DNA of 64,000 nucleotides from Thermococcus camini (GTDB lineage: Archaea > Methanobacteriota_B > Thermococci > Thermococcales > Thermococcaceae). Below the pieces are notes generated by a model. That model ran no database searches, was not told where the DNA came from, and saw nothing but the letters and a program-made list of their open reading frames with translations. Position 1 is the first letter of the stretch, and the number at the start of each line of letters is the position of its first letter. The translations under genes were made by a program, and so were the position numbers. The stretch covers positions 1,678,277-1,742,276 of the forward strand of contig NZ_LR881183.1 in the NCBI RefSeq assembly GCF_904067545.1. The letters are read 5' to 3'. Shown in pieces: positions 951 to 4,226 of the stretch.

Positions 951-2393
<1,443 letters not shown>

Positions 2394-3236
2394 TCAGACC
2401 ACCCCCTTTGACTCGAGGTAGTGTTTTTTGGCAATCTCCTGCTCGCGGACGAATCTGCCGTCACGCCTTATGACATCGTCCCAGTCCACCTTGTGGGCGT
2501 CAAACATCGGCCCGTCCCTGCATGCGAACTTTATCTCCCCGTCGTAGAGTATCCTGCAAGAGCCGCACATGCCGGTTCCGTCCACCATTATCTGCCTCAC
2601 CGTGACGATGGTCGGAATTCCGTACTCCCTGGTCAGGTCGGCGAGCTTCTTTAGCGAGCCCAGCTTTCCGCCGCCGAAAACTATGTCCACCTTGTCCTTC
2701 TCGATGAGCTCCCTCAGAACGTCGAGGTAGTGTCCCTTGATTCCACGAGAGCCGTCCTCAGTGGTGAGGTAGTATTCGTCGGCCACGGGCTTCGCCAAGA
2801 ACTTCTCGGGGTAGGAGTGGGCCCTGTCCTCGAAGGTCTGGATGGAGATGGTGTAGTTCCCGGCCTCCTTCATTGCCCTGAGCGTGGCGTAGTTCTCAGC
2901 CTGGCCGCAGACGGCGTCGGAGACGAAGACGACGTTCCCGTAGTGCTTAACCTCTATCGGCATCCCGAGCGGTCCGGCAACCGCGTAGAGGGAGTCGCCA
3001 ACGTCGAAGTTGTCCCAGAGGTCGAAGGTGGTCTTCCCGTGCCTCCTGATGAACATCCCCAGCCTTCCGGTTTCCCTGTCGGCGTAATAGACGGACATCG
3101 GAATCCTCTCGCCCTTCTTGTGTATCAGTAAAACAACAAACTGGCCCGGCTTCCATGCTCTAGCCACATGTGGCGCCTCGACCTCCATAAAGAAATCCCT
3201 AACATCCAGTTCTTCTTTCGCAGTAATTCGGTACAT
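2394..3236 (-). CDS. nfnS: Ferredoxin:NADP oxidoreductase small subunit NfnS (SudB)
   Basis: A 280-residue protein of the ferredoxin-NADP reductase superfamily: N-terminal flavin-binding barrel, then a Rossmann NAD-binding domain, then a C-terminal cysteine motif DGTGMCGSCR...FAC that in this family holds a [2Fe-2S] cluster with an aspartate ligand. It is first in a two-gene operon with nfnL and has a strong site GGGAGG ahead of its ATG. The promoter region carries a TATA box and a SurR-like operator (see 3269-3301). In Pyrococcus and Thermococcus relatives the complex links the ferredoxin pool to NADPH and is tied to sulfur metabolism. Confidence 0.93.
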   Translation of the reverse strand: MYRITAKEELDVRDFFMEVEAPHVARAWKPGQFVVLLIHKKGERIPMSVYYADRETGRLGMFIRRHGKTTFDLWDNFDVGDSLYAVAGPLGMPIEVKHYGNVVFVSDAVCGQAENYATLRAMKEAGNYTISIQTFEDRAHSYPEKFLAKPVADEYYLTTEDGSRGIKGHYLDVLRELIEKDKVDIVFGGGKLGSLKKLADLTREYGIPTIVTVRQIMVDGTGMCGSCRILYDGEIKFACRDGPMFDAHKVDWDDVIRRDGRFVREQEIAKKHYLESKGVV

Positions 3237-3268
3237 GGATGAAACCTCCCGTACATATGAACAGTTTT

Positions 3269-3301
3269 GTTCACCTTAAGTTCTGAACTTTGAGTTTATA
3301 A
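3269..3301 (-). promoter_or_regulatory. nfnSL promoter with SurR-like operator
   Basis: On the minus strand a TATA box TTATAAAC (3301-3294) precedes nfnS by about 60 bases. Immediately downstream lies GTTCAGAAC-TTAAG-GTGAAC (3288-3269), which matches the published SurR consensus GTTn3AACn5GTT with one mismatch in the last triplet. It sits between TATA box and expected transcription start, a position where SurR binding would repress. Confidence 0.65.
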
Positions 3302-3440
3302 CAGTTTTTTGAACCAAAGGTTTAGAACTCCTTTTCGCCCAAAACAAGGCCAGAGCGTCCCCCTTTAGAGCCCGATAGGGGCTTCTTCCGCTTTGGGAAG
3401 CCTTTTTAGCATGAGTGAGTAACTTCAATCGGTGATATGA

Positions 3441-4226
3441 ATGGTGGAGATACCGAAGAGCCACCCGCGCTACTGGAGCCTGTACTACAGGGAGAAGATC
3501 ATCGAGGGGATGGAGAAGGGCATGACCGCCAAGGCAGGGCTGATAGCCCACGGCCGCGGTGAGGCCTTTGACTACCTTATAGGGGAGAAGACGATAGAGC
3601 CTGCGGAGAGGGCCATGCGCGCAGCCGTTGCCAAGCTGATCCTGGCGAAGCACCCGGTTATCTCGGTCAACGGCAACGTTGCCGCGTTAGTTCCAAAGGA
3701 GACGATAGAGCTGGCAAAAGCGCTGAATGCTAAGCTTGAGATAAACCTGTTCTACCGCACGGAGGAGCGCGTTAGGGCAATAGCCAAGGAGCTGAGGAAG
3801 CACGATCCCGATGTGGAGCTCCTCGGAATAAACCCCACGAAGCGCATCCCCGGCCTGGAGCACGAGAGGGGAAAGGTTGATGAGGAAGGCATCTGGAACG
3901 CCGACGTGGTGGTCGTCCCGCTGGAGGACGGCGACAGAACGGAGGCTCTCGTGAGGATGGGCAAGTTCGTGATCACCGTCGACCTCAACCCGCTTTCCCG
4001 TTCGGCGAGAATGGCAGACATAACCATCGTTGACAATATAGTCCGGGCTTATCCGAGGATGACTGAACTGGCCAGGGAGATGAAGGACTACAGCAGGGAG
4101 GAGCTTCTTGCAATACTGGAGGAATACGATAATGGGAAAACACTGAGCGATGTGCTCACCCATATACAGGACAGGTTAACCCGGCTAGCCCAGGGAGGGG
4201 TGTGGCGCAAGGAAAGATTGGAGTGA
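3441..4226 (+). CDS. 4-phosphopantoate--beta-alanine ligase (archaeal phosphopantothenate synthetase)
   Basis: The 261-residue protein has the length and sequence pattern of the archaeal phosphopantothenate synthetase family (formerly DUF137), which condenses 4-phosphopantoate with beta-alanine using ATP in archaeal coenzyme A synthesis. Typical segments are IPKSHPRYWSLYYREKI at the N-terminus, the glycine-rich AHGRGEAFDYLIGE and the later ITVDLNPLSRSARMADITIVDN. It works in the cytoplasm after pantoate kinase. GGTGAT at 3431-3436 fixes the ATG. The gene is transcribed divergently from nfnS across a 204-base intergenic region; a TTTTTAG box at about 3402 may be its TATA element. Confidence 0.92.
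   Translation: MVEIPKSHPRYWSLYYREKIIEGMEKGMTAKAGLIAHGRGEAFDYLIGEKTIEPAERAMRAAVAKLILAKHPVISVNGNVAALVPKETIELAKALNAKLEINLFYRTEERVRAIAKELRKHDPDVELLGINPTKRIPGLEHERGKVDEEGIWNADVVVVPLEDGDRTEALVRMGKFVITVDLNPLSRSARMADITIVDNIVRAYPRMTELAREMKDYSREELLAILEEYDNGKTLSDVLTHIQDRLTRLAQGGVWRKERLE

Follow-up and report, generated by a model that had tools for sequence, protein, structure and literature searches.

Predicted SurR Operators on Both Sides of the TATA Box in an FNOR2-Type nfnSL Promoter of Thermococcus camini

The nfnSL Operon and Its Genomic Context

The window, by which we mean the whole 64,000-nucleotide stretch of the Thermococcus camini genome that was analyzed, encodes both subunits of a ferredoxin:NADP oxidoreductase on its minus strand and, divergently, an enzyme of CoA biosynthesis. 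These genes and the promoter elements between them are listed in Table 1. Profile and phmmer matches identify the S and L subunits, so the operon was correctly named nfnSL in a preliminary description of this DNA. The nfnS gene and the CoA gene share an intergenic region of 204 bp.

Table 1. Genes and predicted promoter elements of the nfnSL region. Positions count from the first base of the window.
Feature	Position	Strand	Basis or remark
nfnL, large subunit	951..2393	-	phmmer 5vj7_A, 5.3e-251
nfnS, ferredoxin:NADP oxidoreductase small subunit, FNOR2/NfnIII type	2394..3236	-	NF004862, 326.9 bits; phmmer 5jca_S (NfnI), 1.7e-65
Leader inverted repeat TGAACA-AAAC-TGTTCA	3258..3273	-	sequence; includes most of GTGAAC
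GTGAAC, third triplet plus AAC of the site described earlier	3269..3274	-	expected transcription start at or adjoining
Downstream SurR core (dSBS) GTTCAGAAC	3280..3288	-	exact short core; the site described earlier
Additional SurR core GTTATAAAC, overlapping the TATA box	3294..3302	-	sequence and motif scan
TATA box TATAAA of the nfnSL promoter	3295..3300	-	sequence
BRE-like A-tract AAAAAA, between uSBS and TATA box	3305..3310	-	sequence
Upstream SurR operator (uSBS) GTTCTAAACCTTTGGTT	3312..3328	-	exact long motif
4-phosphopantoate--beta-alanine ligase, CoA biosynthesis, divergent	3441..4226	+	NF041123, 336.1 bits

Among the matches listed, the closest Thermococcus record has an S subunit 91% identical to that of the window (one Thermococcus locus of 80 listed). 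In genome G023, which we take to be T. kodakarensis KOD1, SurR lies at 954 kb and the nfn loci at 1,171 and 1,479 kb; identity of the S subunit encoded in the window is 79% to one of these loci and 37% to the other. With SurR listed as TK1086 (PMC4247193), interpolation by gene number puts the two loci near TK1326 and TK1685, and their subunit order agrees with the published lists (PMC6401487, PMC12016516). Because S-subunit identity, gene-number interpolation, and subunit order agree, the window operon is apparently of FNOR2 type, orthologous to TK1684-1685 and not to TK1325-1326. The second nfn locus of T. camini has its best match in 5vj7_B (9.1e-156), presumably Xfn of P. furiosus, and is, by sequence, FNOR1-type.

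SurR Motif Matches in the nfn Promoter

The SurR consensus is given as GTTn3AAC or GTTn3AACn5GTT (PMC8595942, PMC10025317), called here the core and the long motif. The preliminary description had proposed a SurR operator GTTn3AAC-n5-GTGAAC on the minus strand, one base off this consensus and directly after the TATA box, in a repressing position. Its letters and placement hold: the minus strand reads GTTCAGAAC at 3288–3280, TTAAG at 3279–3275, and GTGAAC at 3274–3269, the mismatch falls in the third triplet of the long motif, and from the first TATAA base (3300) it is 12 nt to the start of the core, with the nfnS start codon at 3236.

Shuffling the window gives about nine long-motif matches with up to one mismatch (mean 8.9, sd 3.3, 100 shuffles), so that a lone match of this kind is unremarkable; this is also what speaks for a chance match in an AT-rich promoter. 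The window holds 16 such matches, a number reached by one shuffle, and six of the 16 fall in 3272–3328, among them the only three exact long motifs of the window: minus 3328–3312, minus 3302–3286, and plus 3280–3296. Three exact matches in one promoter argue against chance. All three were missing from the preliminary description. The first is the upstream operator, whose core (3320–3328) is followed by a GTT (3312–3314) beside the BRE. The other two arise where the TATA-overlapping core and the downstream core combine into exact long motifs on both strands (3280–3296 plus, 3286–3302 minus).

The predicted uSBS and dSBS are thus placed at the BRE and TATA box, where SurR binding can activate or repress. 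The BRE-like A-tract occupies the BRE position given for T. kodakarensis (PMC4247193), and in an alignment of 61 promoters its last three A columns are invariant and the TATAA columns 0.98–1.00 identical. Across the whole genome (a single contig of 2,022,529 bases) there are 32 exact long motifs, compared to nine for the reversed pattern. The composite of a long site, 18–28 nt, and a core occurs in the nfn promoter only, searched genome-wide on both strands; the reversed control gave none.

SurR and Other Predicted Sites in the Genome

The genome encodes a predicted SurR of its own with a redox CxxC motif, here CTEC (NF047699, 397.9 bits against a cut-off of 250; phmmer to PF0095, 2qlz, 1.4e-90). 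Its gene adjoins a Pdo gene, and an exact long motif lies at the start of the surR side. All 94 genomes searched in the family have a SurR match at E ≤0.001, and 91 of them one above the curated cut-off. The three below it are incomplete genomes: G010 and G064 (77 and 75%) have weak matches only, and in G081 (79%) the gene is in two pieces on two contigs. Two of 14 control genomes have a match, none of them above the cut-off.

Several of the other exact motifs in the T. camini genome precede genes for a soluble hydrogenase, mbh/mbs-like antiporter-type membrane complexes, hyp proteins, surR/pdo, CoA-disulfide-reductase-like proteins, and the second nfn operon. Some fall within open reading frames, where chance probably accounts for them. 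Judged by eye, the core stands about 17–20 nt before a TATA-like element in the soluble-hydrogenase, surR, and hyp promoters, and follows it at a gene, possibly nsr, with a product scoring above the cut-off for CoA-disulfide reductase. At L150:2001–2017 (G000:C1:453586–453602), an exact long motif precedes a gene for a CoA-disulfide-reductase-like flavoprotein that scores under the NCBIfam cut-off; the core is some 18–19 nt ahead of a TATA-like element, making this gene a possible further SurR target on motif grounds. Another, at L161:2001–2017 (G000:C1:1260194–1260210), precedes an iron-containing alcohol dehydrogenase-like gene that passes no NCBIfam cut-off.

Conservation across Orthologous Promoters

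Orthologous promoters were collected by searching 94 genomes of what we take to be the family Thermococcaceae, many of them close relatives; 86 had a match (E ≤1e-40), and the window plus 60 matches at 69–100% S-subunit identity gave 61 promoters. The long motif of uSBS is exact in 59 of the 61, with one mismatch each in L118 and L130, and in all 59 promoters with an exact long site the end of its core lies exactly 19 nt from TATAA. The dSBS core is exact in 46 promoters (L121 is left out of these, its core being the TATA-overlapping one), and 45 have both sites. Within these 45, dSBS begins 12 nt after TATAA in 40, 14 nt in four, and 13 nt in one. Six promoters have GTC in place of GTT in dSBS (L090, L091, L093, L094, L095, and L097), and nine more lack the exact core (L117, L118, L119, L121, L124, L125, L128, L135, and L136). 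Lack of conservation in relatives had been named in advance as what would speak against the site; this did not occur.

Thinning the set at 90, 80, 70, and 65% identity leaves uSBS exact in 44/46, 31/33, 18/20, and 14/15 promoters, and dSBS in 33/46, 23/33, 13/20, and 10/15. Over all 61 promoters, mean column identity is 1.00 (rounded) for the uSBS triplets and 0.87 for their spacers, and 0.92 for the dSBS triplets together with GTGAAC, against 0.60 for their spacers. The BRE/TATA stretch between the sites averages 0.75, the leader 0.69, and the flank upstream of both sites 0.50; that the first two of these also exceed the upstream flank weighs against the operator reading. Shuffling yields the long motif at a rate of 0.0002 per promoter and the core at 0.009, and set beside these rates the conservation in 61 promoters rules out a chance match, to which we give practically no weight. 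Exact motifs, conserved orthologous promoters, and a SurR encoded in the same genome together support the proposed identity of the element as a SurR operator.

The TATA-overlapping core GTTATAAAC is present in only 12 of the 61 promoters. Its carriers belong to two separate genome groups, six in genus g1 and six in g4, a spread that may reflect repeated gain. The six GTC-bearing loci, whose S subunits are 93–96% identical, have a differently built nfn promoter, CTATATAAAAG, in which the GTC-type downstream core lies 42 bp from the upstream core.

The shared 204-bp intergenic region, and a divergent CoA gene in 45 of 60 relatives (about 1.2 kb upstream examined), raise the alternative that the operators act on the CoA gene, alone or together with nfn, and so couple CoA supply to sulfur reduction that depends on CoA. 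In the 15 relatives without an adjacent CoA gene, however, uSBS is exact in 15/15 and dSBS in 13/15 (at one of them, L099, a contig end leaves 1,089 bases). With the sites retained in these relatives, the operators appear to go with nfn, to whose TATA box uSBS also keeps a fixed distance. The CoA gene is probably not what these predicted operators serve, and we consider this alternative very improbable.

The GTG Triplet and the Leader Repeat

The base by which the downstream site departs from the SurR consensus is itself conserved. Where TATAA is in range, 50 of 60 FNOR2-type promoters carry GTG as the third triplet after dSBS, as compared to GAT after the downstream core in 39 of 61 FNOR1-type promoters. 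In T. kodakarensis the median distance from TATA box to transcription start is 23 bp (PMC4247193), and because of this distance the nfn start is expected at or adjoining the GTG. We therefore disfavor GTGAAC as a decayed SurR triplet. The start site or the inverted repeat in the leader would better explain the mismatch than a weak SurR half-site would.

The repeat pattern TGNNCAN4TGNNCA occurs in 34 of 60 FNOR2-type and 18 of 61 FNOR1-type leaders, and could be an RNA hairpin or a site for another protein. Together with a GTG conserved where the SurR consensus wants GTT, it allows a reading in which GTGAAC and the leader repeat form another regulator's site or an RNA element, leaving uSBS as the only working SurR operator. 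Against this, the GTTn3AAC triplets of dSBS are conserved above their own spacers, the palindrome occurs genome-wide at five places compared to three for the control (one mismatch allowed), and the leader fold has a z-score of only -1.9. The reading is thus an unlikely one, and the palindrome as a regulon-wide operator was rejected for want of clear genome-wide enrichment.

Direction of Control

Hidese et al. (2017) name SurR control of two ferredoxin:NADP oxidoreductases in their title, and reportedly describe two sites in each FNOR promoter, one upstream and one downstream. Predicted sites upstream and downstream of the TATA box, the FNOR2-type arrangement reported in that study, are what the T. 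camini promoter contains. Later papers call T. kodakarensis FNOR2 SurR-controlled (PMC6401487, PMC12016516, PMC12401011), which supports the proposed link between this operon and the sulfur/hydrogen switch. According to these papers, sulfur regulates the abundance of both enzymes (PMC6401487), FNOR1 (TK1325-1326) being more abundant with sulfur and FNOR2 (TK1684-1685) without it (PMC12016516), and reduced SurR binds and activates FNOR2 (PMC12401011). If reduced SurR on balance activates FNOR2, the enzyme should be more abundant without sulfur, as is reported.

Since both kinds of site are present and the upstream one is better conserved, net activation with damping is the best reading. Without sulfur, reduced SurR would occupy the upstream site, help recruit the basal factors, and raise nfn transcription, and with it the NADPH supply in hydrogen mode. 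SurR on the downstream core, between the TATA box and the start site, would damp nfn and give a graded output, to which the extra TATA-overlapping core of T. camini would add further damping. With sulfur, the CxxC of SurR would be oxidized, SurR would release the DNA, and nfn would fall toward its basal level. We think it probable that the nfnSL region is under two-operator SurR control like that reported for T. kodakarensis FNOR2, with activation from upstream and damping from downstream; the sites are read from sequence, and the sign is taken from secondary literature. The inexact dSBS in 15 of 61 promoters, six of them with GTC, counts against this model.

A pure repressor would sit on or just after the TATA box and block the preinitiation complex until sulfur relieves it. 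The downstream and TATA-overlapping cores of T. camini fit such a role, and a study of T. piezophilus, in which SurR motifs precede Nfn I, II, and III, lists Nfn among the SurR-negative genes (PMC8595942). SuDH-type enzymes are also reported to be sulfur-induced in relatives: a table in PMC6981617 gives sulfur induction of SuDH I for three relatives and of SuDH II for one, although the paralog split is not clear, and the T. onnurineus proteome has SuDH II (TON_1336-1337) up on sulfur (PMC4463584). Subunit order and position suggest that TON_1336-1337 is FNOR1-type, in which case it need not contradict activation of FNOR2. A purely repressing SurR is fairly unlikely given that the best-conserved site lies upstream of the BRE, that the TATA-overlapping core is confined to 12 of the 61 promoters, and that FNOR2 is more abundant without sulfur (PMC12016516) and activated by reduced SurR (PMC12401011).

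The "repressing position" assigned earlier to the downstream site thus survives as a proposed damping element and fails as the whole account; that reading is at best half right. The picture of one imperfect repressing site as the element is unsupported, as uSBS, which it did not include, is the most conserved site.

Site position as such is a poor guide to sign. A SurR site upstream of the BRE is reported as activating (mbh) and one overlapping the BRE/TATA as repressing (mbs) in PMC12401011. Applied across the T. camini regulon, this rule was not clean, and we rejected it: by eye, roughly 21 nt separate the core from a following TATA-like element in the mbs-like promoter, and the nearest upstream core of the mbh-like promoter is about 46 nt away, not 19. 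Distance alone therefore does not predict sign.

Significance

A SurR link of the nfn operon is very probably real, and is already on record for the close relative T. kodakarensis. The present analysis adds a further Thermococcus-type nfn operon to the SurR regulon, well supported by comparison among relatives, and NADPH supply would accordingly follow whether hydrogen or hydrogen sulfide is made. Comparison of the paralogs offers a simple rule by which the same archaeal regulator could switch on one isoenzyme operon and hold down the paralogous one, the variable being a set displacement of the site with respect to the BRE and TATA box.

Comparison with Paralogous Promoters and Known Systems

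We compared 61 FNOR1-type promoters (60 fetched plus that of T. camini) with 60 of FNOR2 type, anchoring the boxes on TATAA; L118, which has no TATAA in range, was left out. Both types have two upstream boxes 14 bp apart, a distal one 19 nt and a proximal one 5 nt before TATAA. The distal box is complete in 59 of 60 FNOR2-type promoters, where the proximal box is complete in none (one mismatch in 44, two in 16) and its sequences are A-rich. FNOR1-type promoters have a complete proximal box in 36 of 61, and in all 61 one with at most one mismatch, and a complete distal box in 12. The downstream core is exact at 12 nt after TATAA in 41 of 60 FNOR2-type promoters, with four more at 14 nt, and at 14 nt in 47 of 61 FNOR1-type promoters.

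In the first 16 FNOR1-type promoters (15 plus that of T. camini) the upstream core stood at 5 nt in all nine that had an exact one, and seven had none. With a larger set (n = 60) it was at 5 nt in 35, at 19 nt in nine, and absent in 16; a clean paralog difference of 19 versus 5 nt was then dropped, and the claim reduced to box completeness. Promoters of NfnI type (20 examined) do not fit the scaffold: 14 have no TATAA in range, four have no exact core before TATAA, and two have a core at 30 nt.

Our tentative proposal, which we hold at somewhat below even confidence, is that the FNOR1 and FNOR2 paralogs share one scaffold, two upstream SurR boxes 14 bp apart and a core after the TATA box, and that the upstream box which is complete sets the sign. 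FNOR2 promoters keep the distal box complete, and their proximal one would have given way to the BRE, allowing activation; FNOR1 promoters have a proximal box beside the BRE that is complete or differs at a single base, and a distal box that has mostly decayed, which would favor repression. If this is true, a single 14-bp shift of register sends two isoenzymes opposite ways under the same regulator. We did not find the register difference described in the available parts of the SurR/FNOR literature (PMC8595942, PMC12401011, PMC10025317, PMC12162507, PMC6981617, PMC4463584, PMC6401487, PMC12016516, PMC4247193, PMC6650551, PMC6737238, PMC7278568). The same layout with a different box completed in FNOR1 promoters is possibly new.

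Among known systems, the FNOR1 promoter type, that of T. kodakarensis FNOR1 and P. furiosus Xfn (5vj7), resembles the window promoter in its two upstream boxes 14 bp apart and its one core between TATA box and start. It differs in which box is complete (proximal 36/61 vs. 0/60, distal 12/61 vs. 59/60), in the downstream core at 14 rather than 12 nt, and in the enzyme being more abundant with sulfur, as reported in PMC12016516. The FNOR2 promoter of T. kodakarensis (TK1684-TK1685; taken to be L100) has the same divergent CoA gene and exact upstream and downstream sites 40 bp apart, but lacks the TATA-overlapping core of T. camini. Locus L115 (genome G028), presumably T. piezophilus to judge by its paralog arrangement, also has an exact upstream long site. 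The table for T. piezophilus NfnIII lists a short site alone, unlike the pair of sites predicted here, but puts this SurR motif 42 bp before the start codon, which is the place of dSBS in T. camini (PMC8595942).
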